A stretch of DNA of 64,000 nucleotides from an uncultured Bacilli bacterium. GTDB taxonomy: Bacteria; Bacillota_I; Bacilli_A; RF39; UBA660. A program made the translations under genes and the position numbers. The notes under the pieces were generated by a model that saw only the letters and a program-made list of their open reading frames with translations, was not told the origin of the DNA and searched no databases. The stretch spans positions 62,001 to 126,000 of the forward strand of contig CANQRL010000002.1 in NCBI GenBank assembly GCA_947626275.1, written 5' to 3'. Shown here piece by piece: positions 39,289-64,000 of this stretch (position 1 is the stretch's first letter; every line of letters starts with the position of its first letter).

Positions 39289-39319
39289 AAAAAATAGATA
39301 GCTGTTCGCTACCTATTTT
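39289..39319 (-). terminator. Terminator of fused pilin-like gene 3 (repeat copy 1)
   Basis: ATAGATAGC pairs with GCTACCTAT around a 5-nt loop, followed on the minus strand by a T-rich run. Near-identical hairpins follow the other two paralogues and the 43146 gene. Confidence 0.8.
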
Positions 39320-40593
39320 AAACAATATTGGTAAGTATCTTGACCAAAAATTCCTAATATGAACTCTAATAGTAATGGAAGTAAGAAGATAATAAGCGCT
39401 ACAATTAATCTCTTTGCAAACTTTCCACTTACTTTCTTGATTTCATCTTCATTATCTGCCGCTATCGCTTTAATAAAGTCTAAGATAGTTAGAATAATGA
39501 TTACTACTGGCACGATATATCTTATCCATGATACGATTCTTATTAGCCATGCAGCAAGTCTTTCTGATATGTTACAACTATTAGAATCACCATTAGCGGA
39601 ATTAATGCCATGGCTCTCTTTTATCTCACTTATATCTTTTTCCAACTTTAAGCAAGCCTGCACACAAACATCCGAATAATCACGAACTTTAAATACAGAT
39701 TGACATAAACTCGAAAGATATTGTTCAGTTTCGTGAACACGTGAATAAAGAGATGCTTCGTCATCCTCTCCATTCTCAATTTGCCCATAAAGAGAATCAA
39801 TTTGATTTTTATACCTATTATAGGTAAGGCAAGAAGATTCTACTTCTTCATCACAATCATCACCAGAGCATTCTCTATTTTCACAATAAGGATATCCTGC
39901 TTGGCTCGCTGCCATGCTATCATTAAAAATATAATAATTAGCAGATCCTTTATCTGATTTACAAGCAACGGTAGGAAGACATTTTTCAGTTCCCCTTTCT
40001 TCAGAAAACCAAGATTCTTCTAATCCTTCCCCTTTCCAATAATAAACACCTAAATAAGCAGAACTAGTTGATTCAATTACAACTGTCTTTGTATTGGTAT
40101 CTACCTTAATAGTATATCCTACACCTGGATATTCACAAGTATAACTATCAGTATCTGCACCTTCCCATTTGTAAACAGACATAGAACCAACTCCAGATTC
40201 AGCAACAGAAACGCCTTCTGTTGATATTGTTTCCGAAGTAAAACCATACCATTCTCGTCCATTACTTGCAATAACCCCTATATATGTAGGACAATTGCCA
40301 GATTGAATATCAGAAGCACCCTTTTTACTTTGCCCCCAGTTCATTATTGACTCATTTCCGCCTAATGCAGACCAAGAAGAAGATGTTCCTTCATGACTAT
40401 TATCGTCATAAATAGTAATGGTTATTGTTGCATTTTGATAAGCAGGTCCACCCGTTGTTGTGGAGCCATCGGATTTTAAATCATTTTGATATGTATACTT
40501 ACAAACTTCTTTTACTTCTTTCGCACATACATTTTCACCTAAAAATAAAAGCAAGAAAAAAGCAAAAAATAGATACCAGTATTTTCTACTCAT
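39313..40593 (-). CDS. Secreted Cys-rich protein with VirB2-like two-helix C-terminal anchor (copy 3)
   Basis: The 426-residue product has a signal peptide (YLFFAFFLLLFLGENVCA). A roughly 300-residue extracytoplasmic domain with many Cys follows. The C-terminal block of about 85 residues starts NSCNISERLAAWLIRIVSW, has a helix, the loop DFIKAIAADNEDEIKK, a second helix and the end DTYQYCLK. That block is almost identical in the two neighbouring genes and shares the DEIKK loop with the small VirB2-like proteins. AGGTGGTTTT precedes the ATG, and an extended -10 (TGGTATAAT, 40618-40610) lies upstream. It is its own transcription unit. Confidence 0.75.
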   Translation of the reverse strand: MSRKYWYLFFAFFLLLFLGENVCAKEVKEVCKYTYQNDLKSDGSTTTGGPAYQNATITITIYDDNSHEGTSSSWSALGGNESIMNWGQSKKGASDIQSGNCPTYIGVIASNGREWYGFTSETISTEGVSVAESGVGSMSVYKWEGADTDSYTCEYPGVGYTIKVDTNTKTVVIESTSSAYLGVYYWKGEGLEESWFSEERGTEKCLPTVACKSDKGSANYYIFNDSMAASQAGYPYCENRECSGDDCDEEVESSCLTYNRYKNQIDSLYGQIENGEDDEASLYSRVHETEQYLSSLCQSVFKVRDYSDVCVQACLKLEKDISEIKESHGINSANGDSNSCNISERLAAWLIRIVSWIRYIVPVVIIILTILDFIKAIAADNEDEIKKVSGKFAKRLIVALIIFLLPLLLEFILGIFGQDTYQYCLK

Positions 40594-40609
40594 AAAACCA
40601 CCTAGACTA

Positions 40610-40618
40610 ATTATACCA
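40610..40618 (-). promoter_or_regulatory. Extended -10 promoter, copy 3 of the fused pilin-like genes
   Basis: TGGTATAAT on the minus strand lies about 17-25 bp before the ATG, just after the terminator of the upstream paralogue. The same arrangement precedes the other two copies (41729-41721 and 43108-43100). Confidence 0.55.
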
Positions 40619-40624
40619 TATTTT

Positions 40625-40655
40625 AAAAAAAAGGTAGCTATTCGCTACCTATTTT
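40625..40655 (-). terminator. Terminator of fused pilin-like gene 2 (repeat copy 2)
   Basis: AGGTAGC and GCTACCT form the stem with a TATTC loop; a run of T follows on the minus strand. Confidence 0.8.
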
Positions 40656-41704
40656 AAACAATATTGGTAAGTACTTTGGCCAAAAATTCCTAATATGAAT
40701 TCTAATAGTAATGGAAGTAAGAAGATAATGAGCGCTACTATTAATCTCTTTGCAAACTTGCCACTTACTTTCTTTATTTCATCTTCATTATCTGCCGCTA
40801 TCGCCTTAATAAAATCTAAGATGGTGAGAATAATGATTGCTACTGGCACGATATATCTTACCCAAGATACGATTCTTATTAGCCATGCAGCAAGTCTTTC
40901 TGATATGTTGCAACTATTAGAATCACCTTGAATACTATTTATGTGATTTGCTACTTTTGCATCGGCTATGGCCTTTTCCATTTGTGTACAATCTTTTACG
41001 CACTGTGATGACCAATCTAATGATTTTAAAACGCCATGACAATATACCTCTAGTTTATCAATTTCATCATTTACTTGCTTATATAAAGCAGCAGTAGATT
41101 TTCCTTGTTCCTCTGCTTGATGAATATCCTGATAAAAATCATTTATTTTCTCCATAGCGTTATCCATTGTTCCACATTCAAAATCTTTTTCTTCCGGTGT
41201 TAATGTCTCATCTTCACCAGAGTAAGAGATGTAACCACAACCCGCATACATGACATTCGTAAGAAAATCCCACCATTCCTTATCCTCCATATAATAATGA
41301 GTTGTGCTATTCCTAGCTGAACCATCATCATAATAGAATTCGTATCCAGATGTTAAAACAGAAGTAGCAAATTCTCCTAGTGTAGTAGTCGAAATACTGT
41401 AATGACATAGATAAAGATTACTACATTTATCTGATTGACTACTTTCAAACCATTGTTGCGAAATAGAATCATCTATGGAGAACAAAATAGATGTTCCGCT
41501 AGCCAGTTCTAAAAAAGTATCTAAAGGTCCATTATTTACTCTACTTATACTAATATTCTTACTTGCCTCATCAACATCAATGACAAAATCATTTAAGTCA
41601 TCGCAATAACCACCATCACATTGATACTGGCAAGAAAATGCCAAAGATTTCGTTGTAAAAACAAAGAAACAAATGAAAAAAAATACTAAAAATCTTTTTT
41701 TCAT
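40649..41704 (-). CDS. Secreted Cys-rich protein with VirB2-like two-helix C-terminal anchor (copy 2)
   Basis: The 351-residue product has a signal peptide (FLVFFFICFFVFTTKSLAF). An exodomain unlike those of copies 1 and 3 follows (it begins CQYQCDGGYCDD). The C-terminal block is nearly identical (NSCNISERLAAWLIRIVSW ... STYQYCLK). The helical stretch before that block (DCTQMEKAIADAKVANHINS) corresponds to similar segments in the others. AGGTGATGAT precedes the ATG, and an extended -10 TGTTATAAT lies upstream. Confidence 0.75.
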   Translation of the reverse strand: MKKRFLVFFFICFFVFTTKSLAFSCQYQCDGGYCDDLNDFVIDVDEASKNISISRVNNGPLDTFLELASGTSILFSIDDSISQQWFESSQSDKCSNLYLCHYSISTTTLGEFATSVLTSGYEFYYDDGSARNSTTHYYMEDKEWWDFLTNVMYAGCGYISYSGEDETLTPEEKDFECGTMDNAMEKINDFYQDIHQAEEQGKSTAALYKQVNDEIDKLEVYCHGVLKSLDWSSQCVKDCTQMEKAIADAKVANHINSIQGDSNSCNISERLAAWLIRIVSWVRYIVPVAIIILTILDFIKAIAADNEDEIKKVSGKFAKRLIVALIIFLLPLLLEFILGIFGQSTYQYCLK

Positions 41705-41720
41705 ATCATCACCTATTCTA

Positions 41721-41729
41721 ATTATAACA
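41721..41729 (-). promoter_or_regulatory. Extended -10 promoter, copy 2 of the fused pilin-like genes
   Basis: TGTTATAAT on the minus strand precedes the copy 2 ATG, directly after the terminator of copy 1. Confidence 0.55.
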
Positions 41730-41734
41730 TATTT

Positions 41735-41766
41735 TAAAAAAATAGATAGCTATTCGCTACCTATTT
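41735..41766 (-). terminator. Terminator of fused pilin-like gene 1 (repeat copy 3)
   Basis: AATAGATAGC and GCTACCTATT form the stem; on the minus strand a T-run follows. It is nearly identical to the other three copies. Confidence 0.8.
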
Positions 41767-43083
41767 TAAACAATATTGGTAAGTATCTTGACCAAAAATT
41801 CCTAATATGAACTCTAATAGTAATGGAAGTAAGAAGATAATAAGCGCTACAATTAATCTTTTCGCAAACCTACCGCTTGCTTTCTTTATTTCATCTTCAT
41901 TATCTGCTGCTATCGCTTTAATAAAATCTAAAATCGTTAGAATAATGATTACTACTGGCACGATATATCTTATCCATGATACTATTCTTATTAGCCACGC
42001 AACAAGTCTTTCTGATATGTTACAACTATTAGAATCACTAGTGACAGAATTAATGCCATACTTTTCCTTTATATCACTTAAGTCTTTTTCATAGTTGATA
42101 CATGCTTTAACACAATTAGAAGAATAATCATAACTTCTTAACATTGCATTACAAAATGCTGCTGTAGTTTTCTCTATATCATGAACTTTAGAATAGTACT
42201 GATCATTATCCCCATTTGCGTTTTGGGAAATTTTATAATAATAATGTTCTATGCTATCATCATCTGCATCACAATCCCCATTAGTGCAAAATAATTTTTT
42301 GTTATAACTTTCGCATGAATAATTTTGACTATTACAATCTGATCCAGAACAAGTTTTTACACCACACTCCGTATATCCAGCTTCATAAGCTTCGCCTTCA
42401 TCAGAAAAGATATAATAAGTTACCATACCACTCAAAGCAATGTTGTTATAGCAAGACACGGTAGCTAAGCACTCATCAGTATTCCGATCTTCAGAAAACC
42501 AAGTACTTTCAAGAGTTTCTCCAATTTGATAAGAAAGAGAAGATGTTACCCCTAAATCCGTTGAAAGAGAAAGCGTTTTGTCGAGGCGATTTACCACAAT
42601 AGTGTAAAACTGGTAGCGACAAGAATAAATTCCTAATTGTGATTGATGATTATCGTTTTTGAAAACAGAAACCTGATTAGTCTGCCAGAAATTATCTGCT
42701 GCCTTTGTTGCTGATTCCATCAAATCCTCTTCATTCACTCCATAATATTTTACTCCAACAAGACCATAAAAATTGCTCATCAAAACAAGGTAATCTGGAC
42801 ACTCTGTTTCGCTAACAGCAGCAAAATAATCTGTATTTTCTCCCCAGTTTAAAACCTCTTCACTTCCACCAGGTCCACCACTCAATTGATTTGATCCATC
42901 TGTATAAATTTCAAGAGTTACAGTCCTTCCTGCATAACTTCCACTTGACGTAATCTTTCCCGCGTCTGTTATGCTTGCATAAGATGAATAGGTACAAGTT
43001 TTACTAACCTCTTCAGCCAATAATTTTTCAGGGAAGAAAAGGAAAAATGACAGTACAATTCCTATCAAAATTTTCTTTTTCAT
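41761..43083 (-). CDS. Secreted Cys-rich protein with VirB2-like two-helix C-terminal anchor (copy 1)
   Basis: The 440-residue product has a signal peptide (ILIGIVLSFFLFFPEKLLAE). The exodomain is distantly similar to copy 3: CTYSSYASI, a NWGEN motif versus NWGQS, and TWFSEDRNTDECL versus SWFSEERGTEKCL. The C-terminal anchor is the shared one (NSCNISERLVAWLIRIVSW, DNEDEIKKASGRFAKRL). AGGTGATGAT precedes the ATG, with an extended -10 TGATATAAT upstream. Multiple Cys suggest disulfide-stabilised extracellular structure. Confidence 0.75.
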   Translation of the reverse strand: MKKKILIGIVLSFFLFFPEKLLAEEVSKTCTYSSYASITDAGKITSSGSYAGRTVTLEIYTDGSNQLSGGPGGSEEVLNWGENTDYFAAVSETECPDYLVLMSNFYGLVGVKYYGVNEEDLMESATKAADNFWQTNQVSVFKNDNHQSQLGIYSCRYQFYTIVVNRLDKTLSLSTDLGVTSSLSYQIGETLESTWFSEDRNTDECLATVSCYNNIALSGMVTYYIFSDEGEAYEAGYTECGVKTCSGSDCNSQNYSCESYNKKLFCTNGDCDADDDSIEHYYYKISQNANGDNDQYYSKVHDIEKTTAAFCNAMLRSYDYSSNCVKACINYEKDLSDIKEKYGINSVTSDSNSCNISERLVAWLIRIVSWIRYIVPVVIIILTILDFIKAIAADNEDEIKKASGRFAKRLIVALIIFLLPLLLEFILGIFGQDTYQYCLK

Positions 43084-43099
43084 ATCATCACCTAGATTT

Positions 43100-43108
43100 A
43101 TTATATCA
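43100..43108 (-). promoter_or_regulatory. Extended -10 promoter, copy 1 of the fused pilin-like genes
   Basis: TGATATAAT on the minus strand precedes the copy 1 ATG after the terminator of the 43146 gene. Confidence 0.55.
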
Positions 43109-43112
43109 TATT

Positions 43113-43146
43113 TAAAAAAAATAGATAGCAGTTCGCTACCTATTTT
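43113..43146 (-). terminator. Terminator after the YjdF-like gene (repeat copy 4)
   Basis: ATAGATAGC (43121-43129) and GCTACCTAT (43135-43143) form the stem; the T-run follows on the minus strand. Confidence 0.8.
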
Positions 43147-43754
43147 TATTGAATTCCTTGCATAAACCCTTTTACAAATAATTCTTTACCTCGTTTTTCT
43201 TCAAACACATAACATACAGCAATGAAAATGGCTCCTAAGAAAGCTACAATGATATCTTGCATGGTATCATTTACTCCTGTTAAAGCCACCCTTTGAGCAT
43301 CTCCACCAAAGAAAATATTCGCAATATATTCAAACATCTCCCATCCTGATGCTACTAACATAGTAAATGATAAAAGAAAAAGAATATTAAAAGCAATTTT
43401 TCTTTTGTCATATAAATCTGCCACCTTCAAAAAGAGAAGAGCAAATAAAGCAGTTAGTACTCCTGAAATGGTATGTGTCACTTTATCAAAATAAGCAATA
43501 TGATTATAAAGTTCTAATGTTGTTCCTAAAAAATGAGCACTAAAGATGAATAAAACAACAATAAACTTAATCATAGTAGATATTTTTTTATGAAAAAGTT
43601 TTTCCACCCAATAAGGAGCAGTAATCGTTAAAACAATAGAACTATCTTTTAAAATTAAACCAATTTCTTTATCTCTCGTAATAGCAAAATAAAGTCCTCC
43701 AACAATAGCGATTGCTATCATGACAAAATTAAGAATCTGAAGCATCTTCTTCAT
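43146..43754 (-). CDS. YjdF/DUF2238-like membrane protein
   Basis: The 202-residue product has about six membrane helices. It carries the pattern of the YjdF-type family: HIAYFDKVTHTISGVL, SGWEMFEYIANIFFGG and GVNDTMQDIIVAFLGA, with conserved Asp/His/Glu in membrane-near positions. Function is unknown. ATG 43754 with GAGG ten bases upstream is chosen. The frame overlaps the rmuC end by 26 nt, so it is co-transcribed with rmuC. Confidence 0.72.
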   Translation of the reverse strand: MKKMLQILNFVMIAIAIVGGLYFAITRDKEIGLILKDSSIVLTITAPYWVEKLFHKKISTMIKFIVVLFIFSAHFLGTTLELYNHIAYFDKVTHTISGVLTALFALLFLKVADLYDKRKIAFNILFLLSFTMLVASGWEMFEYIANIFFGGDAQRVALTGVNDTMQDIIVAFLGAIFIAVCYVFEEKRGKELFVKGFMQGIQ

Positions 43755-44811
43755 AGTCAATAGACCTCATTTCTACTTGATTAATGCTATTAAACCTTTT
43801 AGTTATCTTATCAGTGGTAGTGTGAATATCTTTTACATCCTTACTAACCGTTTCAATGCTTCTATAAAGTTTATCCCATCTTTCACGATATCTTGAAAAT
43901 TCTCCATCTAGCAATTGTAATTCTTTATGAATCACTTGAGCATATTTATCCCGCTCAATATTCTTCATAATAATTTGAATAGTAGTTAAAGTACTGATAA
44001 GGGTTGTTGGAGAAGTAATCCAAACTCTTTTTTTATAAGCGTATTCTAATAGTTCAGTATGATAAGCATTTACTTCAGCAAAAATAGCTTCTGCTGGTAA
44101 GAACAAAATAGCTTGATCACTAGTTATTCCGGGAATAATATATTTACTACTAATGGCATCAATATGCTTTTTCATATCGACTTTGAACAATTTTTCGGCA
44201 TTTGCTCGAACATCCGCACTATTTTTCTTGTTCACCATTGCCTGATAATTTTCCAAAGGAAATTTAGAATCGATCGCTATCGTACCTAATGGTTCTGGCG
44301 CAAACAAGACACAGTCTGCTATCGTTCCATTAGAAAATGTATGCTGCATCTCATATATTTTTGTATTATGTTGACCAAATACATTCGACATAATATGCTC
44401 TAAATTAACTTCACCAAAAATACCACGAGTCTTTTTGTCCGTCAGAATCCCCTGTAGAGAAACAATATCAGTAGATAAACTATCTATTTTCTTTTGAGCT
44501 TCATCAATCTTGGATAATCTTTCTAAAACAGAAGTAAACGTTTTATTGGTTTTCTCAAAGTTTTCATCTAAGCGTTCGTTTACTTTATCGGTAATCATTC
44601 GTAGCCTAGTATCTAATTTTTCATTTGTTTTTTCAAAATCATCACGAATATCTCTACTAAAATCGTTTTTAAAATCACCTATTTCTTTTACAATATCTGT
44701 TTCTAACTTACTTATCTTTTCTACTACAGAATCATCATGATGCGTTCTTACCAATAAGAAAACTAAAAGAACAATGTTTAAAATAGATAATCCAATAATA
44801 ATATAATCCAT
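43729..44811 (-). CDS. rmuC: DNA recombination protein RmuC
   Basis: RmuC is a membrane-anchored nuclease-fold protein that limits DNA rearrangement. The 360-residue product has an N-terminal helix (IIIGLSILNIVLLVFLLVRT) and a long coiled coil to about residue 110. The conserved core follows: RGIFGEVNLEHIMSNVFGQH, AIDSKFPLENYQ, DQAILFLPAEAIFAEV and VWITSPTTLISTLTTI. The start overlaps the DUF4176 gene stop (TAATG). Confidence 0.93.
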   Translation of the reverse strand: MDYIIIGLSILNIVLLVFLLVRTHHDDSVVEKISKLETDIVKEIGDFKNDFSRDIRDDFEKTNEKLDTRLRMITDKVNERLDENFEKTNKTFTSVLERLSKIDEAQKKIDSLSTDIVSLQGILTDKKTRGIFGEVNLEHIMSNVFGQHNTKIYEMQHTFSNGTIADCVLFAPEPLGTIAIDSKFPLENYQAMVNKKNSADVRANAEKLFKVDMKKHIDAISSKYIIPGITSDQAILFLPAEAIFAEVNAYHTELLEYAYKKRVWITSPTTLISTLTTIQIIMKNIERDKYAQVIHKELQLLDGEFSRYRERWDKLYRSIETVSKDVKDIHTTTDKITKRFNSINQVEMRSIDYEEDASDS

Positions 44812-45092
44812 TATCCCACCTGAGTTTGAGTCGTTGGAATATTTTTTAGGAAAGCTTTAAATTTTGTTTCCTCATCATTTACATATCCCAAATAGTAAAT
44901 ATCCGCGATTTGACTATGATCAAAAACAAAAATACTCTTGCTATCGATAATTCCTTCTGGATAAGAACATCCACTATAATCATACACTTTTTCGCTTCCT
45001 GGTTTGATAATTCCAAATCCTGTTATCATTAACTTCTTATTTGCATCCTTTAATAATACAATCGTTCCAACTGGTAAATATTTTTCTGTCAT
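44811..45092 (-). CDS. DUF4176-like small protein
   Basis: The 93-residue soluble protein starts YLPVGTIVLLKDANKKLMIT and has YDYSGCSYPEGII and IADIYYLGYVNDEE. This is the pattern of DUF4176, a small family often encoded near secretion loci (type VII) in Bacillota. No type VII gene is seen here. GAGGAATGAAGT precedes its ATG. It lies between the 532-residue protein and rmuC. Confidence 0.72.
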   Translation of the reverse strand: MTEKYLPVGTIVLLKDANKKLMITGFGIIKPGSEKVYDYSGCSYPEGIIDSKSIFVFDHSQIADIYYLGYVNDEETKFKAFLKNIPTTQTQVG

Positions 45093-45109
45093 ACTTCATT
45101 CCTCTCTTT

Positions 45110-46708
45110 CTAATCCCAAAAAGTAAGATAATCAACAGCGCCTGATGCTAATTCACCAAGACCATCCCATTGTTCAGCACCCCACTCCAAAGCCATATCT
45201 TTTAATTCTTCTGCACCTTCAGCAATCTCCTCTGCTTTTTGAGAGCCCCATTCCATCAAATTATCTTTAGCTTCTTCAAGTGCTTCTCCTGCATTTTCAA
45301 GAAGTTCTTCCCCCTTCTCCCTTATGCCATCAACAAATTCTTCACCCTTCTCTCTTATACCGTCGACAATTTCTTCCCCCTTTTCTCTTGCTGCATCGAA
45401 CAATTCGCCGGCGTCTTCTTTGAATTGCTCAAAATCGTCTTGAGAATCAATAACACCCTCGGAAAAAGCTCTAATTTTTTCCTTGGCAATAGCTCCTCCA
45501 GCAGCAACAACAGCTTGGTATCCCATTAACAATCCTGTATACCATTGATCTGCAGGAATGTCTGTAACAACACTATCTGTAATATAATCCGCTCCAAACG
45601 AAAGAGTCGTCGAACCAACTATAGAGGTTCTAGCCAAAAAGCCAATATCTAGAAGATCACAAATATCACTAAAGGAACCTACAGCACCCATGACATCATC
45701 ACTAGAAATATCCTGAATTTTACTAAGGCAATCCATAGTAGACTCAAAGTCGTAAAATAAATTTGGAAGTCTTTTTTCAATGGCCCGTGCGGAAATAAAA
45801 ACATTATTCTTTCTTAATACATCAGATATATAATTAGGAAGTTCAGGATAGATATCTAAAAGGGCATTTGTAATTTTCCTTCCACGGCTCATATTTTCAT
45901 CCTCTAAAAAGGCTTCATATAAATTTCGAACATTTTTATCGTTAAAATTTAGTTCTATTCCCAAGGTTTGCTCATACGGTGCTACAAACGTTTGAAGAGT
46001 GCCTGGCAAATCTTCAAAAATTAAATTTAAATTCTTATAAGGAATCTGTTTTTCTTGAACAAGGTCAATCACATCTAAAAAGATTTTCTGTGGCTCCAAT
46101 TCTTCCTCTCCAAGAAATAATTCTGTAAATTCTGAAATAACGTCCAAATTTTCATATAGAATCTTAACGGTCTCATTATTTAACCGAATTCCTAGTCCTG
46201 CTTCGTCTACATGAGGTTGTAAATAATTGCAAATGACTTCATCAATATTAGAAAAATTTGCTTTCAACTCTTCATAAGTTATATTAGAAGAAGAAATTCG
46301 CTTTACAATATCCAAGGCAATCTCTTCCATATTGTCATCCGTCAAATCTACATCAGAATAAGCAACCGCCAAAGAAAGAAAAAAGATTTTGTGATCATAA
46401 ATAAGCTGTTCACTAAAATTATCTGTATTAATCCCCATGGCAGCAAATTTCTCTTTTATTGTTGCAATAGCATCCTCTATCTGCTTCTTTGGACTTAATT
46501 TTTCTATTTTCTTTTTTGGGTTGAATCCGTCCAGTATCCCCGCTATCGTTTCAAGCGTTCCTTTACTTTCCTTAGTCTCTTCTTCATATTCTTCGTATTC
46601 ACCGTTTAAATTTTGTTGAAAAGTGTCTAATGATGTATTTCCTTTAGAAGGATTGGAAGTTTCCAATTTAGAAGTTTGAAACTTCCCAGAATCCGAATTG
46701 AAATTCAT
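45110..46708 (-). CDS. Large acidic helical protein with C-terminal amphipathic repeats, candidate secretion substrate
   Basis: I do not recognise a family for this 532-residue product. There is no signal peptide. The N-terminus is polar (Ser/Thr/Asn, then Glu-rich), the middle is helical (about 60-390), and one moderately hydrophobic stretch (WYTGLLMGYQAVVAAGGAIA) lies near 395-415. The last 110 residues are repeats of about 11 residues (AREKGEEIVDG, IREKGEEFVDG, IREKGEELLEN) ending WDGLGELASGAVDYLTFWD. It sits next to the coupling ATPase and a DUF4176 gene, which suggests a secreted or membrane-active substrate, but this is inference. Confidence 0.6.
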   Translation of the reverse strand: MNFNSDSGKFQTSKLETSNPSKGNTSLDTFQQNLNGEYEEYEEETKESKGTLETIAGILDGFNPKKKIEKLSPKKQIEDAIATIKEKFAAMGINTDNFSEQLIYDHKIFFLSLAVAYSDVDLTDDNMEEIALDIVKRISSSNITYEELKANFSNIDEVICNYLQPHVDEAGLGIRLNNETVKILYENLDVISEFTELFLGEEELEPQKIFLDVIDLVQEKQIPYKNLNLIFEDLPGTLQTFVAPYEQTLGIELNFNDKNVRNLYEAFLEDENMSRGRKITNALLDIYPELPNYISDVLRKNNVFISARAIEKRLPNLFYDFESTMDCLSKIQDISSDDVMGAVGSFSDICDLLDIGFLARTSIVGSTTLSFGADYITDSVVTDIPADQWYTGLLMGYQAVVAAGGAIAKEKIRAFSEGVIDSQDDFEQFKEDAGELFDAAREKGEEIVDGIREKGEEFVDGIREKGEELLENAGEALEEAKDNLMEWGSQKAEEIAEGAEELKDMALEWGAEQWDGLGELASGAVDYLTFWD

Positions 46709-46768: not shown

Positions 46769-46795
46769 CAAAAAAGTAGCAAAAAATTTGCTACT
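46769..46795 (-). terminator. Terminator of the T4SS-like operon after the coupling protein gene
   Basis: An AGTAGCAAA/TTTGCTACT stem with a 3-nt loop is followed on the minus strand by a run of T. It overlaps the last bases of the gene. Confidence 0.85.
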
Positions 46796-51095: not shown

Positions 51096-51103
51096 ACCGC
51101 ACC

Positions 51104-53737: not shown

Positions 53738-53758
53738 AGTATCACCTACCAACTAATT

Positions 53759-56409: not shown

Positions 56410-58590
56410 TTATTTTTTAGAACCGCCAGCATATTTTGCAACATCTTCGGTACCTCGATATGAAGAAGAAGATTCCCAAGCATTTCTCTCTCCTTGAGCA
56501 CCTTTGGATGTAGCTTTGAGGTCGTTTGGATTTGCAGTGATTTGAACTTCCCTTGAAACTTGATGTCCTGAGGCATCTGTATATGTATACTGAATATGTT
56601 CATCGTTAACTTGTTCAATAAGTTTATTCATTGTTCCCTGTAAGTTTTGAATCCTTGCAGTTGCAGCATCGCCACCTGCAGCCCCACCTGCACCATCATC
56701 TATTCTTTCCGTTCCAGCAGCTATCTGTTTAATACGTTGATCTAAAGCGTCTTCTGCTTGCTTTAAAGCAGCTTGATACTGCTCTGCTGCTGTTATTATC
56801 TTAGCCTGACCAGTAGTTGGGTCTATAATTGTGTTCCCATGGCTATCCGTTGCATATTTATCTTTGAAAGCACTCGAACCAGCTTGTTTGATACCTTCAG
56901 ACACTGCTTTTAATCGTTTAGATTCTTTATCAACAGAAGTTACTGTCTTAGAAACCTCATCCCATGTCTGACTAATTGCCTCCATCTTTCCAGAAATAGA
57001 TTTCTGATGCTCAGCTCTTGTTTCACCATGGAAAGCATTGTAAAGTTTTTCACCTGTAACTGACCATGGATTAACACCATCTGCAGCCATTTGATCTAAT
57101 TCTTTCTTTCTTGCACGACCAGCACCATAAGAACTTGCAAAGTTTTTACCAAACTTTTCTCCTCTAGCAGCACCAAGGATAGCTTTTCCCATAGCTCCGC
57201 CTCTTAAACCTTGTCCAGAAAGTAGTCCAGCGAGTCCAACACCAGCAGCGGTTCCTACTCCCACTGTTGCGCCTAACGCTAAACCTTTACCTAAATTTCC
57301 TACTGCCTTAACAGGAGCTGATAAAATTTTACCACCAGGAATAGATTCCAATTTTTTTACAGGATTTAAAGTGAAATCTCCAGTACCTTTTATTCCTAGA
57401 GCATCTTCTAGAACTTTTGGTAACTGCTTAGCAAACATCAAAACGCCAATAATAACGAATATTTGAACCCATAAATCAGTTACTCTCTCTCCTGTAACAA
57501 CATCCCGGATACCAGAACGAGTTACACCAGAAATAACATAAATTGCTAGATAAAGGGCAATTAATCTCATAAATAAACTAGCATAAGTTGTTCCAACTTG
57601 TCTAATCCATTTGCTAAACATTCCGTCTTTTCCACTCTTTGGATCGATATAAGAAAGAATTGGAATTGGCGCAATTAATTGATAAAAAGCTAGTTTAACG
57701 CTACGAACAGCAACATCAATACAGAACAATAGTAATACCCACAAGACAGCTACACCAACTGCCGTACTTAATGGAGCCATATAATCTACAACATATAAGC
57801 CGTCAGTATTGTTTTTTGTCATCATGGCAATATCGTGCTTAAACATTAAGTAAAAATTTTGTCTAGAAACACCTTGAGCATAAGTTTGATACAAGTCTTT
57901 ATCAGACCAAGCATCAGCATAAGCTAAGCTCTCACTATACGTTCCATCAGAAGCTCTATCTCCAAAGCAATCTTTATTCAAAATAAAGATATTAGAATCA
58001 TTGGAGTCTACTTTAACTTGACCAGCATTGTCACCAGATTCCACATATTCATAAGGAATGGCACATGCATTAATACTAGCATTTCCACTATCTTCATACA
58101 ATCCCATATAATTAGGTTGGAAGAACGTATACATCAGTACAAATTTTATTTTTTCACCGGCTGTATCAATTTGATAAGTGGTAGACCCATTATTTCCTGC
58201 TGATGGAGTACCAAAAACAAAGGAAGCTAACGTATTATCCTCTAAAATAATAGCTTGCAAATTATACAATTCCTTAAACCCATAAGGAACTAAAACTAAC
58301 ATAACTAAAGAGAGAACAACCCTCTTCATGACAGAAGCGAATCCTTTTTCTTTATCAACAAACTCATCTGGATTTAGTACATAAGTAATAAGGGAAAGAC
58401 TAATTTTAAAGAGCATAAAAATGCCAATAAGCATATAAATCCTAGTGGCAAATTCACCTATGAAGCTCTCATCTAAAATCGTCGTCCTAGCAATAACTAG
58501 GAGTAAATCATAGACTTTTCCTATTCCTTCATAAACAACTCTATCAATATTAAAAAATAATGTCCTTAAAACTTTTACTATATATTCCAT
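56410..58590 (-). CDS. VirB6/TrbL-like polytopic channel protein
   Basis: The 726-residue product has about six membrane helices in residues 40-400, including IYMLIGIFMLFKISLSLITY and VVLSLVMLVLVPYGFKELYN. A long hydrophilic cytoplasmic tail (about 410-726) follows, with Gly/Ala-rich and charged helical stretches. It contains an exposed loop with Cys (about 170-215). Such proteins form the inner membrane channel of Gram-positive T4SS. AAGGAGTAGCTTCT precedes the ATG. The long tail is a feature of this family in Bacillota and may bind the ATPases. Confidence 0.82.
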   Translation of the reverse strand: MEYIVKVLRTLFFNIDRVVYEGIGKVYDLLLVIARTTILDESFIGEFATRIYMLIGIFMLFKISLSLITYVLNPDEFVDKEKGFASVMKRVVLSLVMLVLVPYGFKELYNLQAIILEDNTLASFVFGTPSAGNNGSTTYQIDTAGEKIKFVLMYTFFQPNYMGLYEDSGNASINACAIPYEYVESGDNAGQVKVDSNDSNIFILNKDCFGDRASDGTYSESLAYADAWSDKDLYQTYAQGVSRQNFYLMFKHDIAMMTKNNTDGLYVVDYMAPLSTAVGVAVLWVLLLFCIDVAVRSVKLAFYQLIAPIPILSYIDPKSGKDGMFSKWIRQVGTTYASLFMRLIALYLAIYVISGVTRSGIRDVVTGERVTDLWVQIFVIIGVLMFAKQLPKVLEDALGIKGTGDFTLNPVKKLESIPGGKILSAPVKAVGNLGKGLALGATVGVGTAAGVGLAGLLSGQGLRGGAMGKAILGAARGEKFGKNFASSYGAGRARKKELDQMAADGVNPWSVTGEKLYNAFHGETRAEHQKSISGKMEAISQTWDEVSKTVTSVDKESKRLKAVSEGIKQAGSSAFKDKYATDSHGNTIIDPTTGQAKIITAAEQYQAALKQAEDALDQRIKQIAAGTERIDDGAGGAAGGDAATARIQNLQGTMNKLIEQVNDEHIQYTYTDASGHQVSREVQITANPNDLKATSKGAQGERNAWESSSSYRGTEDVAKYAGGSKK

Positions 58591-58620
58591 AGAAGCTACT
58601 CCTTCTATGTTATTATACCA

Positions 58621-58691: not shown

Positions 58692-59081
58692 CTAGAAACC
58701 AACATCTCTTGCGCCATCAACTGTACAAGCATTGGCATCACCGTTAACGAAACATTTAAAGCAACTTGCAATACTGTCATCATCATTAGAAATGAAACTA
58801 ATTACCATTTGTACAATCGTAATAACGAAGAATACGATTACAGCGGCAATAAGTCTTTTGATGAAAGTTTGTTGACCTTTCTTAATTTCATCTTCTTTTT
58901 GTGCCATAACTGCTTTTGCCAAATCTAACATACCAAAAATGATTAAGAGAATTGGAACAACAATCTTAATAATTAAGACAATCATAGAAACGACATATGG
59001 TAACATACCACTGAAGCTCATTCCAATATCGCCACATGTGTAAGTTAAATTTGTATCAATATTTGCTAAAACCTGTAACAT
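58692..59081 (-). CDS. VirB2-like pilin/small two-helix membrane protein
   Basis: The 129-residue product lacks a classical signal peptide. Its outer N-terminus carries YTCGDIGM, then helix 1 (IVVPILLIIFGMLDLAKAVM), the cytoplasmic loop AQKEDEIKKGQQTFIKR, helix 2 and an outer tail CFKCFVNGDANAC. Size and topology match VirB2/TrbC pilins. AGGAGGAG and a perfect promoter precede it, which suggests high expression, as expected of a pilin. Confidence 0.78.
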   Translation of the reverse strand: MLQVLANIDTNLTYTCGDIGMSFSGMLPYVVSMIVLIIKIVVPILLIIFGMLDLAKAVMAQKEDEIKKGQQTFIKRLIAAVIVFFVITIVQMVISFISNDDDSIASCFKCFVNGDANACTVDGARDVGF

Positions 59082-59105
59082 TTTTCTCCTCCTCTAGCTA
59101 AGTTA

Positions 59106-59134: not shown

Positions 59135-59141
59135 CAAATGC

Positions 59142-60242
59142 TTATTTTATTATGTATGGATCTTGTTCCGTTCCAGAACCAGTCGTATAGAGTTCTTGAC
59201 CACTTAAATAGATAACCCAATAATAGCTAACTGTATTTCTTGCTCGTAAAGTATTGACATATCCACCACTTATATCATATACCTCGTACGTGTTATCTGC
59301 AGAACCAATAGAAGTCCATGAAGTAGTAACCGTATTAGATAAATAATTGTAGTTAACACAAGATCCCGCGCCAACACTAGTACAATTCTCATCTAAACTT
59401 GCCATAGGGAAATCCAATGTATTAATAACACTGATATATTCTCCCTCCAACACCTCTGAGCAATCAATATCATAGGAAATCTCTCTATTTTTATCAGAAC
59501 GTTTTCCGATACAAACATCATGTGGAATCAAATGAATTTTGTTCTGTTCTTGCGTAATTGAAGCATAATCTTTCTGCAACGTTTCACGTAAAAAGCTATT
59601 TTCATATTCGTTAATACCATAAGATTTCTCTATTTCCGTATTATACTTGTTATCCCAAATTTTCTTGGCTTTCTCAGCATTCGCCTTAATTACTCTTAAA
59701 TTACCATTTTCATCAATCTTGATAATTCTCCATAAAAGTCCACCAAACGAAATGTAATTATTAACTAATTTTCCTCTGAAAATATACTCGCCATTTACTT
59801 CGTATAAGCCACCTTCATAAGGATCTTCGGAATCCGCAACAAGATTGTCTTCAATTACTTTATCATAAAAATGTACAGTAGTATAATTGGTACAATCCAA
59901 ATGTGGCAAATAAAGGGCGCTTCCACCATTATTCATAACAAGAACTCGACCAGTACAAGTATCCTTGATCTGTTTACTTAAATCTCCAATACTTCCTGAA
60001 GAAACTAAAGTAGCAGAATCTAACTCAATACTCTCCCCATCTTGTGGAACAGAGTCTGGATTTTTCTTCAAATAAGTTTGCGCAGCCTTCACTAGCTTTT
60101 GTTCCAGTTTGCTGTAATTATTTCCAGGACCTGCCAACAATTTAATAATGATCAAGATAACAATAAGAAGAACAATGGCTCCAAGTATGATTCCACCCAT
60201 TATATAGACCTTTCGATCTAATTGTTTCAATTTTTCAATCAT
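59142..60242 (-). CDS. Membrane-anchored pseudopilin-like surface protein
   Basis: The 366-residue product has one N-terminal helix (about 14-36, GGIILGAIVLLIVILIIIKL), preceded by a basic cytoplasmic stretch, with the rest outside. The segment after the helix (LEQKLVKAAQTYLKKNPDSV) and the following GDLSKQIKDTCTGRVLVMNN resemble the head of type IV pilin-like proteins of Bacillota. A second domain has FGGLLWRIIKIDENGNLRVI and Trp/Tyr-rich strands, found in uncharacterised surface proteins. Eight or so Cys may form disulfides. No prepilin peptidase site is evident. AGGAGGTTTCAT precedes the ATG. Confidence 0.65.
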   Translation of the reverse strand: MIEKLKQLDRKVYIMGGIILGAIVLLIVILIIIKLLAGPGNNYSKLEQKLVKAAQTYLKKNPDSVPQDGESIELDSATLVSSGSIGDLSKQIKDTCTGRVLVMNNGGSALYLPHLDCTNYTTVHFYDKVIEDNLVADSEDPYEGGLYEVNGEYIFRGKLVNNYISFGGLLWRIIKIDENGNLRVIKANAEKAKKIWDNKYNTEIEKSYGINEYENSFLRETLQKDYASITQEQNKIHLIPHDVCIGKRSDKNREISYDIDCSEVLEGEYISVINTLDFPMASLDENCTSVGAGSCVNYNYLSNTVTTSWTSIGSADNTYEVYDISGGYVNTLRARNTVSYYWVIYLSGQELYTTGSGTEQDPYIIK

Positions 60243-60272
60243 ATGAAACCTCCTAAAAATATTCTGGAATTA

Positions 60273-60656
60273 TTATCCATTTAGGAAACCATTGATGCAG
60301 TTCATGATATCAGTTCCATCGTCATCGCCATCAGTTACAAAAGATACTACCATTCTTACAACGGCAATAACAAAGAAAATGATAACAGCGGCAATAAGTC
60401 TCTTAATGAAAGTTTGTTGTCCTTTCTTTATTTCATCTTCTTTTTGAGCCATAACACCTTTTGCTAAATCTAGCATTCCAAAAATGACTAATAAAACTGG
60501 CGCTACTACTTGAATGAGTAAAATAATCGTGTGAACAACTTTTACAATCTTAGCATCCACATTAATCTCAAAGCATTCAAGAGCATACACTGGTGAAGCT
60601 ATCAAAAGCATTCCCATAATAAGTGCCGCAAATATCGCTATTTTTTTCTTTTTCAT
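60273..60656 (-). CDS. VirB2-like pilin/small two-helix membrane protein
   Basis: The 127-residue product has a signal peptide (IAIFAALIMGMLLIASPVYA), then LECFEINVDAKI. Helix 1 (VVAPVLLVIFGMLDLAKGVM), the loop AQKEDEIKKGQQTFIKR and helix 2 follow, ending with DIMNCINGFLNG. It has fewer cysteines than its paralogues (one near each end). It has its own promoter. Confidence 0.78.
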   Translation of the reverse strand: MKKKKIAIFAALIMGMLLIASPVYALECFEINVDAKIVKVVHTIILLIQVVAPVLLVIFGMLDLAKGVMAQKEDEIKKGQQTFIKRLIAAVIIFFVIAVVRMVVSFVTDGDDDGTDIMNCINGFLNG

Positions 60657-60675
60657 AATCTCACTCCTCTAAAAC

Positions 60676-60703
60676 ATTATACTATTATTTTTACAATTTG
60701 CAA
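60676..60703 (-). promoter_or_regulatory. Promoter of the 127-residue pilin-like gene
   Basis: A TATAAT (60681-60676) lies 16 bp from TTGCAA (60703-60698), about 25 bp before the ATG. Confidence 0.7.
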
Positions 60704-60742
60704 AGAATGCCATTGCATTTGTTGAAATGATGGAATTTCATT

Positions 60743-61231
60743 TTAACTTGGATTACCTGTTTCTCCACTATCAGGAGTACCATCGCCATCTCCACCATCA
60801 CAGTTTTCAACACCATTTACAAAGCAGTCAATACAAGAAATAATATTTTCTTTGTTACTATCTGAATCGCCTACGATACCAATTAACATTTTAACCAATG
60901 CAATGATAAAGAATACCAATGCTCCCATAATTAATCGTTTAATGAATGTCTGTTGACCTTTCTTTATTTCATCTTCTTTTTGGGACATAACTCCTTTGGC
61001 CAAATCAATTATCCCAAAAAAGACCAAAAGAATAGGAACGATGGTTTGTCCAATCAAAATTCCAGTACTAACAACTTGCGGAGCCCTATCTGGTATATTC
61101 GAAATGTTTCCGCAAGAAACCTTATTGGTTTCTAGCCAAGCAACATCTTCATCCGCAGCATAAGCAGTATTTATATTTACCACAAAGGAAAATATAAATA
61201 GCAAGGAAAGTGCAATTAACATTTTTTTCAT
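60743..61231 (-). CDS. VirB2-like pilin/small two-helix membrane protein
   Basis: The 162-residue product has a signal peptide (LIALSLLFIFSFVVNINTAY), the outer motif VSCGNISNIPDRAPQ and helix 1. The loop SQKEDEIKKGQQTFIKR, helix 2 and an outer tail CIDCFVNGVENC with an acidic Gly-rich end follow. GAGGGAGAATAAT precedes ATG 61231, which follows the upstream stop by 1 bp; it is therefore coupled to the 252-residue gene. Confidence 0.78.
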   Translation of the reverse strand: MKKMLIALSLLFIFSFVVNINTAYAADEDVAWLETNKVSCGNISNIPDRAPQVVSTGILIGQTIVPILLVFFGIIDLAKGVMSQKEDEIKKGQQTFIKRLIMGALVFFIIALVKMLIGIVGDSDSNKENIISCIDCFVNGVENCDGGDGDGTPDSGETGNPS

Positions 61232-61232
61232 A

Positions 61233-61991
61233 TTATTCTCCCTCACCTTCCTCTGCTTCCGCTTCTACACACTGACCAGAAATAAAGCAATTTAGACAAT
61301 CTGTTGTCGTAGTGCTATCTTGTAAAAAGCTAGTAAGCATTTTGACTACTGCAAACACAAAGAATACAATAGCGGCTGCAATTAATCGCTTAACAAAGGT
61401 CTGTTGTCCCCTTTTTATTTCATCTTCTTTTTGAGCCATAACAGCTTTTGCTAAATCTAGCATTCCCAAAACCACTAAAACTACTGGAACCAATACTTGC
61501 AACAACAAATAAATAATTCTCGTTGTTTTCGGAATATTTGCTGGAATATTAGTGATTTTTCCACATGATACAGGAGAATCCGCACCATTTTTCAAATTAC
61601 CAACATTAGATGAATGAAATGGAGAATTAGGAGAACTATTCAACGAATCAATCTGAGTATATGCCGTTCCAGAATATCCATGTTCATATGGTGGGTAGAT
61701 AGCCCCATCACTATAAATATGTATTGACTCTAAGCACGATTTCATGCTACTCGTAACCGTTAGGTTCTCTGTTCCTAAGTCCTCGTACTCGCCAGTATCA
61801 TACTTCTGTGAGTAATACTTTACAACCTCTCCTCCACCACTTTCCTTAACTCGAATGTGAAGAAAAGTATCCTTTTTTTGAGCATTGGAATAGAAATGAT
61901 AATAGCAATCTTCTTCAGCACTTACATTTTTTATCCCTAAAAACACGACAAAAACTATTAAAATAATAGTTTTTGTTAATTTGCGTCTCAT
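61233..61991 (-). CDS. VirB2-like two-helix protein with N-terminal exodomain
   Basis: The 252-residue product has a signal peptide (TIILIVFVVFLGIKNVSAEE) and then an extra exodomain of about 110 residues with two Cys. The standard module follows: VSCGKITNIPANIPK, helix 1, AQKEDEIKRGQQTFVKR, helix 2 and DCLNCFISGQC with an acidic end. It is intermediate between the plain small proteins and the large three-gene family at 39313-43083. Confidence 0.77.
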   Translation of the reverse strand: MRRKLTKTIILIVFVVFLGIKNVSAEEDCYYHFYSNAQKKDTFLHIRVKESGGGEVVKYYSQKYDTGEYEDLGTENLTVTSSMKSCLESIHIYSDGAIYPPYEHGYSGTAYTQIDSLNSSPNSPFHSSNVGNLKNGADSPVSCGKITNIPANIPKTTRIIYLLLQVLVPVVLVVLGMLDLAKAVMAQKEDEIKRGQQTFVKRLIAAAIVFFVFAVVKMLTSFLQDSTTTTDCLNCFISGQCVEAEAEEGEGE

Positions 61992-62016
61992 AAAATCACC
62001 TCTGATTATACTAAAA

Positions 62017-62991
62017 TTATCTTACTCGATCAAAACCTAGTTTGTTTAAGAACTCAACCAAAGGTGCATTTCTCTTCTCTCGTTCATCGAGTGGAGGTAA
62101 ATTATAGAAAACCTTTACACGTGCCTCATATTCGAAATCTAGCACATCTTTTGAACTTAACAAACTTTTATTCAATACAACCCTTTTATCTTTTAAACTT
62201 CTTAAAACTTGTGGAGTAATCATTGTCAATCGATTTAGCTTAATAACAGATGGTTCAATGAGATATAATATTTCATTACATAATCCTTCTGCCTGAACAC
62301 TATTATTTACATCCACGATAATAGCATCACAGTCACGATACTTACTAACTTCTGCACTAACATTTCCACTAACGGTGGAAACAAATCCTGGAACTTTCAA
62401 ATACGTAAAATCCGTCTTATCCACTTCAATAGCAGCAACGTTGTAATACTTTGATAATTCATTATACATCATGTAAACCAAAGTAGTTGCTCCAGAATTC
62501 TTTGTAATATTCTTCACACCAATAATTCTACCACTGTATCCAGAGCCCACATTTTGCACAATGACATTCTGAGTAACCTGAGTAGGGGCTTGCGGAACTA
62601 CTGCCACCTCTTCTAATTGATGGAATTGTGCTACATCACGATAACTATTCGGATGATTATACAAATACTGTATACCATCAACGTTTCTAGTGAAATTGTA
62701 AATTCCCATAGAAATTAGCTTTGATAAATAAGAAGGAGAAGTACTCTCTTCCGTATCATCTAACAAAAGAATAACTTTTTCCATTGGTAAAGAAATTGAT
62801 AATTTTTGTAAATTACGAATATCCTTATAATTTTTAATTGCTGTAATATCAAGTATCATACGCTGATAAAAAAAGTTCTGAAATGTACTAATAATTTCAT
62901 CCACTTCAAACTCACCGTTCATACTTTTTATTACATCAATTCCTAGATTTTCTAGCATCAATTGATATTTATTAGAAACGATAACATTCAT
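62017..62991 (-). CDS. TadZ/CpaE-like protein with atypical P-loop
   Basis: The 324-residue product has an N-terminal response-regulator-like half (about 1-110: VILLLDDTEESTSPSYLSKL, SMGIYNFTRN), a linker, and a MinD/CpaE-type ATPase half. The Walker A region reads IGVKNITKNSGATTLVYMMY, with Ala in place of the usual Lys before TT. It also has AAIEVDKTDFTYL and CDAIIVDVNNS. TadZ proteins localise Tad pilus machinery and are often catalytically weak. It lies between the pseudopilin-like genes and the pilin-like cluster. Confidence 0.7.
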   Translation of the reverse strand: MNVIVSNKYQLMLENLGIDVIKSMNGEFEVDEIISTFQNFFYQRMILDITAIKNYKDIRNLQKLSISLPMEKVILLLDDTEESTSPSYLSKLISMGIYNFTRNVDGIQYLYNHPNSYRDVAQFHQLEEVAVVPQAPTQVTQNVIVQNVGSGYSGRIIGVKNITKNSGATTLVYMMYNELSKYYNVAAIEVDKTDFTYLKVPGFVSTVSGNVSAEVSKYRDCDAIIVDVNNSVQAEGLCNEILYLIEPSVIKLNRLTMITPQVLRSLKDKRVVLNKSLLSSKDVLDFEYEARVKVFYNLPPLDEREKRNAPLVEFLNKLGFDRVR

Positions 62992-63013
62992 TCAATATCA
63001 CCTTTCATTTATA

Positions 63014-63493
63014 CTAATTGTTATAATGAACTTCGACATCATAAATTGACTTTGTTTCACCATAGACAGGGAATTCAACATAATTTCCAATCAAAGGGAA
63101 ATCAAAGTGCATAAATGTAGCCACCCCATAGTAATGTCCCTTTTCGTTATTGTATTCATAGACACAATAGCGATAAGTAGTTATACCATTATTAGAATTA
63201 CCATAAACAACCGTTCCTCCAGCACGATTTGGACAAGATGTATTTGCTACAGCTAGATGATATCCAATATCCTTCAAACTAGATTCCACTTCTGCTTGGA
63301 CGAGGTTAACAACTGTGCTACCTCTTGTTGACGTAACATCCCAAGCACCATATTTTTCAATTGTATAAATAATTCTATTTTTAACTTTGAATGCTTTAGA
63401 ATAGCTAATAGATCCTATTAGCAAGGCAGACATTACGCCAAGAAATATCAATAATAAATTTACAATAAACGTGTTTCCTATTGCCTCACGCAT
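63014..63493 (-). CDS. TadE/F-like pseudopilin
   Basis: The 159-residue product has one N-terminal helix (FIVNLLLIFLGVMSALLIGS) followed by YSKAFKVKNRIIYTIEKYG. It has an outer domain with two Cys and a C-terminal segment (FDFPLIGNYVEFPVYGETK) typical of TadE-like minor pilins. GGGGTGATTTAG precedes the ATG. It is paralogous to the next gene upstream. Confidence 0.62.
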   Translation of the reverse strand: MREAIGNTFIVNLLLIFLGVMSALLIGSISYSKAFKVKNRIIYTIEKYGAWDVTSTRGSTVVNLVQAEVESSLKDIGYHLAVANTSCPNRAGGTVVYGNSNNGITTYRYCVYEYNNEKGHYYGVATFMHFDFPLIGNYVEFPVYGETKSIYDVEVHYNN

Positions 63494-63513
63494 CTAAATC
63501 ACCCCATTCTAAA

Positions 63514-64000
63514 CTATCCAAAGTAATAAATTCTACTGGTTCTAGAAAATATAGGAATTGCTAATAGATTTTCAATAACAGGAAATCTAAATCTCATAAA
63601 GGTTAATACTCCAAAGGTATAATAAATATCCGTCGTTTCAACTTCCATACCGTCAGCAGACAAAGCGCCATTGTCATTCCAATATAAATAAATGCAATAT
63701 CCTTCATCTTTTGGGTCGCTTGGATTTGCTAGCCATCTTACTCCCTCAACAGTAAAGTCTTCCACCTCACTATATTTATTAGCCAAGTATCTTTGACTCG
63801 TATTTTTCCAAGTATCTGGGCAATCTACTTTTGTTGTAATATCATAGCCCATACTAGTTAATCCAACATCAATTTGAGCTTTGGCGTATGAATTATAGCC
63901 TTCATACATTTCAATAGAGTTAACGATATAATTGTTAACTCTATAGGCTTTGTAATAGCTAAAAGTTCCAGCCAAAAATGCAAATACTAAAAATATAAAT
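63514..64000 (-). CDS. TadE/F-like pseudopilin, 5' end beyond window
   Basis: The open frame continues past the right edge; the part visible covers the C-terminal 160 residues or so. At the edge it reads a hydrophobic helix ending AFLAGTFSYYKAYRV, matching the helix of the next gene. The outer domain has Cys in TKVDCPDTWKN and EGYCIYLYW and ends with FRFPVIENLLAIPIFSRTS, parallel to the neighbour. A TTG at 63975 is inside the helix and is not a likely start. More Tad-type genes may lie to the right. Confidence 0.6.
   Translation of the reverse strand, partial: FIFLVFAFLAGTFSYYKAYRVNNYIVNSIEMYEGYNSYAKAQIDVGLTSMGYDITTKVDCPDTWKNTSQRYLANKYSEVEDFTVEGVRWLANPSDPKDEGYCIYLYWNDNGALSADGMEVETTDIYYTFGVLTFMRFRFPVIENLLAIPIFSRTSRIYYFG

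Follow-up and report, generated by a model that had tools for sequence, protein, structure and literature searches.

The window analysed here is a stretch of 64,000 nucleotides (contig CANQRL010000002.1, C2 below, positions 62001-126000) from the genome of an uncultured Bacilli bacterium of the order RF39 (GCA_947626275.1, G000 below), which comprises 1.40 Mb in 30 contigs. Its right part opens a block of 33 genes that is best read as a resident, chromosomally fixed, relaxase-free hybrid of a type IV secretion system (T4SS) and a Tad-type pilus module. The block is likewise best read as a chromosomal, relaxase-free member of the T4SS plus Tad kind found on conjugative plasmids of Bacilli. On balance, the locus probably forms one translocation machine that acts on contact and serves interaction with adjacent cells. 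The conserved gene order across dozens of species puts the locus far beyond chance.

All 33 genes lie on the minus strand, from window position 39313 to about 74431, with rnr on one side and scpAB on the other. Intergenic gaps within the block are at most 101 bp; its left end is 46 bp from rnr and its right end 67 bp from the divergent scpA, which is followed by scpB. The original prediction, made from the window alone, had ended the locus at position 64000, and the block runs about 10.4 kb further right, up to scpA. This right part (window-equivalent 64077-74431, contig C2 126077-136431) encodes a Flp-like prepilin, TadC, TadB, TadA, CpaB, a DUF5411 protein, an 1130-aa protein, and membrane proteins of 228 and 532 aa. 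TadA, TadB, and TadC are thus found where they had been predicted. The parts named within the window (VirD4, split VirB4, PrgI, VirB6, wall hydrolases, pilins, TadZ-like and TadE/F-like proteins) are all present on the minus strand. The count of four VirB2-like genes rises to seven within the locus and an eighth outside it.

The T4SS portion contains VirB4, VirD4, VirB3/PrgI, VirB6, and a VirB1-type wall hydrolase, as in a monoderm, MPF-FATA-like T4SS (Table 1). VirB4 is divided into two genes, and both halves score under the equivalog cut-off of NF045975, the VirB4 family of mycoplasma integrative and conjugative elements (ICEs). C-terminal VirB4 frames of about 600 aa are conserved across the order, so the split does not reflect damage, and a pseudogene is ruled out. 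No VirB8 was matched by Pfam in the locus, where the lipoprotein-like lipoA and lipoB are candidates by position alone. Most RF39 species are predicted to retain a peptidoglycan wall, which the SpoIID and M23 wall hydrolases of the locus fit.

The second portion is a Tad-type module, short of a certified Tad pilus. TadA matches PF00437 (5.6e-27) and has CpaF as its best PDB match (1.2e-17), and the NCBIfam models for VirB11 and TadA score it nearly equally. CpaB is below the cut-off of TIGR03177 (2.8e-7) and scores 127.9 bits to the annotated CpaB of the Exiguobacterium acetylicum plasmid pEYLC1.2, and the DUF5411 gene has a Pfam match at 4.5e-46. TadB and TadC do not reach Pfam T2SSF; their position and topology fit, and the RF39 profiles select TadB and TadC of pEYLC1.2 at 20.5 and 34.7 bits. 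The TadC model has EpsF, of a type II secretion system, as its top Foldseek row, a weak match (probability 0.91, E 0.57). In the model of the TadZ-like protein, an N-terminal receiver-like domain is followed by a C-terminal ParA/MinD domain. The latter aligns with a root-mean-square deviation of 3.0 over 159 residues of 154-320, and other ParA-like ATPases score equally well. The match to both domains is 3fkq, known as Eubacterium rectale TadZ. The near-tie of TadA with VirB11, the weak TadC match, the non-specific TadZ, and a prepilin that lacks E5-Y6 of the Flp motif G/xxxxEY, and is therefore named Flp-like, are the reasons for the cautious label. Comparison by hhalign of the RF39 TadC and TadZ profiles with single plasmid proteins gave no matches, the profiles being too shallow. 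A PDB sequence search with the TadZ, TadC, p366, and VirB2 profiles gave no meaningful matches. The 1130-aa product is a secreted or surface protein; a profile search of the loci for it gave nothing, though BLAST finds relatives at 25-42%.

The Flp-like prepilin and both TadE-like subunits have a common six-residue leader, M[KR]E[ASG]xG, ahead of a hydrophobic stretch. Under the strict pattern the leader occurs in 48 of 50 Flp-like, 27 of 39 TadE1, and 28 of 53 TadE2 proteins, compared with 1 of 684 background open reading frames (ORFs) and no more than 1 member of any other family. This suggests that the three are processed in common. The prepilin peptidase that the original prediction proposed to search for is not in the locus; the sole Pfam A24 peptidase detected in the genome lies beside PilB on contig C1. 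It belongs to a separate PilB-type type IV pilus (C1:163519-165549). In several congeners no A24 prepilin peptidase was detected.

Retention of the locus was followed in 117 genomes of the order, all of one family and 0.6-1.6 Mb in size. VirB4 orthologues occur in 99, VirD4 in 104, and TadA in 98 of them; 88 have all three and 8 have none. Some orthologues may be missing only through gaps in assembly, since the genomes are metagenome-assembled genomes (MAGs) of roughly 90-99% estimated completeness. VirB4 and TadA tend to be found in the same genomes (Fisher p = 2.4e-4), and where both are on one contig they are at most 25 kb apart in 39 of 44 cases. In dozens of named loci the order CpaB-TadA-B-C-Flp-TadE-TadZ-VirB2-VirB6-VirB3-VirB4N-VirB4C-hydrolase-VirD4-RmuC is near constant. 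This synteny and the position beside rnr in several species uphold the prediction of a resident hybrid fixed in the chromosome. VirB4 is the best conserved part, with a mean pairwise distance of 0.21. Its identity is 65-91% inside the order and at most about 33% outside it in a class-wide sample. Distances in VirB4 correlate with those in VirD4 (Mantel r 0.82), TadC (0.71), TadZ (0.70), and TadB (0.69). The best 80 named contigs with VirB4 are from uncultured gut Bacilli or Tenericutes MAGs. The VirB4 of Candidatus Coprosoma intestinipullorum, which its authors assigned to the GTDB order RF39 (PMC8035907), is 79% identical. RF39 bacteria have reduced genomes and numerous auxotrophies.

The predicted absence of mobility genes holds within the range searched. 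The genome has no relaxase by PF03432, MobL, or MobP3, the families searched; for the MobP3 query, none of the searched genomes supplied a positive control. Contig C2 carries no tyrosine integrase, the one recombinase class searched, and the four of the genome are on other contigs. A relaxase with an integrase to the right, which would have marked an ordinary ICE, was looked for and not found. Among the 117 genomes, PF03432 has 27 matches in 21 genomes, 14 of them within 20 kb of another, ICE-type VirB4 or VirD4. None is within 60 kb of a resident VirB4 or VirD4, and the only relaxase that shares a contig with a resident system lies at distances of 66 kb (VirD4) and 72 kb (VirB4).

The open-access literature yielded no account of a T4SS-Tad locus in RF39, but the pairing itself is not unique to RF39. 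The original prediction of an undescribed system therefore stands for RF39 and not for the architecture, which occurs on relaxase-bearing conjugative plasmids and on a Cutibacterium plasmid and is thus not confined to a secretion system. In E. acetylicum pEYLC1.2 (NZ_CP082335), VirD4 (CD1115), a pilin, TrbL, VirB3, VirB4N, and VirB4C lie on one strand, followed by a 932-aa protein, DUF5411-like, CpaB, AAA/TadZ, TadA, TadB, TadC, Flp, and DUF4320. Its VirB4 is split as in RF39. The RF39 profiles score 293 bits to its VirB4C, 259 to VirD4, 119 to TadA, and 57 to VirB4N, and more weakly 23 to DUF5411, 22 to VirB3, and 14 to TadZ; bits are given because the E-values refer to a small set. A Parageobacillus plasmid (NZ_CP063416) has the same kind of block. 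In contrast to the RF39 locus, pEYLC1.2 has MobP3 and the Parageobacillus plasmid MobQ, both have plasmid partition genes, and a large VirB2 ectodomain array was seen in neither. The Mycoplasmatota plasmid zrk4 (CP074574) has a split VirB4, a VirB2 with a very large ectodomain, and a Tad module with the canonical Flp motif. It differs in being plasmid-borne and in the clade of its VirB4. Outside the order, the TadA proteins closest to that of RF39 are those of Listeria pLIS13, of pLS20 type, and of G121, a genome of another Bacilli family; in pLIS13 the neighbours include a TadE-like and a DUF5411-like gene. The relaxase of pLIS13 is MobP2, its VirB4 is divergent, and no CpaB or TadZ is recognised. 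It counts less clearly as a T4SS plus Tad conjugative plasmid than those of Exiguobacterium and Parageobacillus. The Cutibacterium acnes plasmid described in 2017 has a tad locus adjoining VirB4/TcpC-type transfer genes (PMC5696575); it is actinobacterial and plasmid-borne, and is likened by description. IncI R64 and PAPI-1 also pair T4SS genes with a type IV pilus (PMC12857230), but they are Gram-negative, conjugative, and mobile, and the pilus is not of the Tad kind. Plasmids of Bacilli with a T4SS and a full or partial Tad module are represented in our set by NZ_CP082335 (L171), NZ_CP063416 (L177), CP074574 (L157), and NZ_MZ089994 (L152), and relatives of the pEYLC1.2 CpaB occur in 9 plasmid records only. 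A contig of G121 (L162, G121:C17:2000-21999) has TadA-TadB-TadC-VirB6-VirB4C-VirB4N and an ArdC-like antirestriction gene. This is probably a mobile T4SS-Tad element, and the G121 genome has no PF03432 relaxase. Tad has no entry in a 2025 T4SS review. Papers on RF39 and Tenericutes genomes leave VirB genes unmentioned, and their single passage on a pilus deals with a different lineage.

The closest described analogue is the T4SS of Patescibacteria, the likeness being one of operation. In Patescibacteria, including Saccharibacteria, the T4SS is monoderm, chromosomal, and mostly relaxase-free, with VirB4, VirD4, VirB3, and VirB6 (PMC12102498, PMC12857230). VirB2-like pilin arrays, small genomes, and a T4SS that works alongside a type IV pilus are further likenesses. 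Epibiotic growth of Saccharibacteria requires both the type IV pilus and the relaxase-poor T4SS, which has VirB2-like pilins (PMC12857230, PMC12102498). The pilus there is a separate type IV pilus, whereas RF39 has a Tad-type module in the same block together with SpoIID and M23 hydrolases.

A contact-dependent machine could work as follows. TadA would drive a short Flp/TadE fibre that touches a partner cell and pulls it in, and the SpoIID and M23 hydrolases would open the peptidoglycan. VirB4, VirB6, and VirB3 with VirB2-like pilins, some of which bear variable ectodomains, would form the conduit and the recognition surface. VirD4 would feed a substrate into the conduit, and since no relaxase was found, protein is a likelier substrate than DNA. 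The absence of the DNA-nicking enzyme of conjugation from the search results also indicates that the role is probably contact rather than plasmid transfer. The purpose may be that a bacterium of reduced genome interacts with, or feeds on, the host or other microbes of the gut. Descent from conjugative machinery, with fixation and loss of the relaxase, is the best reading of the resident system. The union of the parts in one machine, the direction and substrate of transport, the purpose, and the loss of the relaxase are inferred, as is the original proposal that the machine exports proteins or builds a surface structure. It is quite possible, though a shade short of probable, that a domesticated conjugation machine and a Tad-type pilus form a contact and translocation organelle across RF39, in which the cassette array described below diversifies the recognition ectodomains of the pilins.

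Several observations weigh against a single machine. No RF39 isolate was found in the open-access literature. Pfam does not recognise TadB, TadC, TadZ, and Flp, which have diverged too far. The VirB4-RmuC distance correlation (r 0.64) is nearly as high as those of VirB4 with the Tad proteins, so the latter may reflect common descent alone. The genera g22, g41, and g46 (two genomes each) keep the T4SS and lack TadA, three genomes (G097, G110, G116) have TadA and no T4SS, and in the single-contig genome G111 VirB4, VirD4, and TadA are far apart; the two modules are thus separable. The sister group of the resident clade in the VirB4 tree consists of T4SSs of families f13 and f19 with no Tad gene detected nearby, and not of the plasmid hybrids. 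This suggests that T4SS and Tad were probably paired more than once. In two members of the sister clade, G199 and G359, a relaxase lies about 5 kb or less from VirB4; zrk4 groups with Exiguobacterium, and the VirB4s of RF39 ICEs group elsewhere. In the TadA tree the branches are long, and the nearest neighbours of RF39 are G121 and pLIS13.

The same genes can be read in other ways. An unlikely but substantial rival is a DNA machine. Here the T4SS would pass DNA from one RF39 cell to another, or import it, without a classical relaxase, and the Tad-type pilus would draw the cells to each other; archaeal Ced/Ted import and chromosomal transfer in mycoplasmas are the models. In many loci VirD4 is followed by RmuC, whose family marks it as a recombination protein, and the closest named VirB4 and VirB6 families come from mycoplasma ICEs, a system that transfers large stretches of chromosome (PMC12857230). 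Archaea are known to import DNA without a relaxase, and a passage in PMC5696575 cites a tad locus needed for transformation in another bacterium. However, the coupling protein VirD4, kept in 104 of the 117 genomes, points to export, and RmuC is the sole DNA-processing gene of the locus and perhaps merely a neighbour.

Less probable again is a surface appendage that displays adhesive Tad fibres and VirB2-like ectodomain proteins and translocates nothing into cells. The many variable extracellular domains, the ecto1-3 array, the 1130-aa surface protein, and the adhesive role of Tad modules elsewhere would suit it, but the two T4SS ATPases, VirB6, and wall hydrolases kept across the order exceed the needs of an adhesin, and VirB4 is the part that varies least. 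That the block is a cryptic ICE, or a mobilisable island, whose relaxase escaped recognition is very improbable. Homologous machines do occur on relaxase-bearing plasmids, and the relaxase search covered a subset of families. Against this, the system is near single copy in almost all species, with conserved order and place beside rnr, VirB4 identity drops sharply at the border of the order, and neither a tyrosine integrase on the contig nor a relaxase near the resident system in the 117 genomes was detected.

The VirB2-like genes would provide the variable part of the translocation machine preferred here. Three of them, ecto1-3 (window 39297-43140 with their spacers), carry large N-terminal ectodomains. 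The last 279 bp of the three have 91-95% DNA identity, and the upstream parts about 50%, with a sharp border. The same hairpin, T tract, and TATAAT precede each gene, and a further copy follows ecto1. The four copies have no other counterpart in 36 kb, and two were also picked up by a terminator scan. Recombining cassette arrays are laid out in this way; switching is predicted only, and an antigenic-variation-like system is possible. Judging by the spacers, ecto1-3 at least would be transcribed on their own, so the whole block is not taken as one transcription unit. Ectodomain forms are common in relatives, where 62 of 189 VirB2-like ORFs are at least 200 aa long, and the ecto3 ectodomain has one homologue only among 100 loci.

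If the contact organelle is real, RF39 would be a second lineage, besides Patescibacteria, with a monoderm, non-conjugative T4SS and VirB2-like pilins; monoderm VirB2 pilins are known only from Patescibacteria, and whether monoderm T4SSs evolve into dedicated effector translocators is a long-standing question (PMC12857230). Hundreds of naturally occurring versions of a pilus-joined T4SS with no relaxase become available through this locus, in a gut order that is uncultured and rich in auxotrophies. The presence of this Tad module on conjugative plasmids also points to a possible mating-pair pilus, which Gram-positive conjugation was believed to lack (PMC11730352). The new details are the six-residue Flp/TadE leader, VirB2-like pilins with large species-specific ectodomains, and a three-gene cassette array with repeated spacers.

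Table 1. Features of the T4SS/Tad block (window positions unless stated; aa, amino acids; TM, transmembrane)
Feature	Position	Strand	Evidence
Hairpin spacer copy after ecto1	39297-39313	-	
ecto1, VirB2-like pilin with ectodomain, 426 aa	39313-40593	-	PF18895 0.0022 (residues 347-411), below cut-off
Spacer, ecto2 to ecto1	40633-40649	-	hairpin/T-tract/TATAAT
ecto2, VirB2-like pilin with ectodomain, 351 aa	40649-41704	-	last 279 bp 91-95% identical among ecto1-3
Spacer, ecto3 to ecto2	41745-41761	-	hairpin/T-tract/TATAAT
ecto3, VirB2-like pilin with ectodomain, 440 aa	41761-43083	-	PF18895 0.00043, below cut-off
Spacer ahead of ecto3	43124-43140	-	hairpin/T-tract/TATAAT
DUF2238 membrane protein, conserved neighbour	43146-43760	-	PF09997 2.2e-4, below cut-off; downstream of RmuC in relatives
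RmuC, conserved VirD4 neighbour	43729-44811	-	PF02646 3e-59
DUF4176 protein, accessory	44811-45092	-	PF13780 3.4e-27
532-aa helical protein, accessory	45110-46708	-	no signal or TM segment
VirD4/TraG coupling ATPase	46794-48986	-	PF02534 5.7e-57; NF045973 (CD1115 VirD4) 291.9 bits, cut-off 250
lipoB, lipoprotein-like	49002-49697	-	sequence; C-terminal TM at 202-220
SpoIID + C39 wall hydrolase (VirB1-like role)	49710-51107	-	PF08486 7.6e-14; PF13529 4.5e-15
lipoA, lipoprotein-like	51104-51784	-	sequence; C-terminal TM at 197-215; in 41/80 loci
M23 peptidase with TM anchor	51815-53752	-	PF01551 9e-25
VirB4, C-terminal ATPase part	53759-55546	-	NF045975 1.9e-104
VirB4, N-terminal part	55543-56148	-	NF045975 1.5e-14; true start probably inside ORF
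PrgI/VirB3	56072-56389	-	two TM segments; homologous to plasmid VirB3-position genes, 22-35 bits
VirB6/TrbL-like channel protein	56410-58590	-	PF19597 1.1e-5, 25.5 bits, just under cut-off 27
VirB2-like pilin a	58692-59081	-	two TM, conserved loop
p366, single-TM protein with large ectodomain	59142-60242	-	conserved in 22 loci
VirB2-like pilin b	60273-60656	-	
VirB2-like pilin c	60743-61246	-	
VirB2-like pilin d with ectodomain	61233-61991	-	
TadZ-like two-domain protein	62017-62991	-	model: ParA/MinD fold Z 14.3; 3fkq E 1.1e-3
TadE-like subunit 2	63014-63493	-	leader MREAIG
TadE-like subunit 1	63514-64000, continues to 64047	-	leader MRESIG
Flp-like prepilin, TadC, TadB, TadA, CpaB, DUF5411, p1130, p228, p532tm	contig C2 126077-136431	-	

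Some minor observations concern the surroundings of these genes. The eighth VirB2-like gene of the genome section studied is isolated at window 31480-31995 (PF18895 1e-5), amid housekeeping genes, and the congener G053 likewise has a VirB2-like gene on the far side of rnr. At another locus (L006:1101-4358), a 1085-aa protein with immunoglobulin-like repeats has a C-terminus that resembles that of p366 as judged by eye. Toxin and effector domains were sought in accessory ORFs near VirD4 of relatives; these were mostly housekeeping genes and mobile-type nucleases, and no effector was called. The 532-aa and DUF4176 genes form a pair (window 44811-46708) inserted between VirD4 and RmuC. Neither has a homologue in the other loci compared, and the pair remains a mere candidate for cargo. 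DUF4176 occurs with type VII secretion loci.

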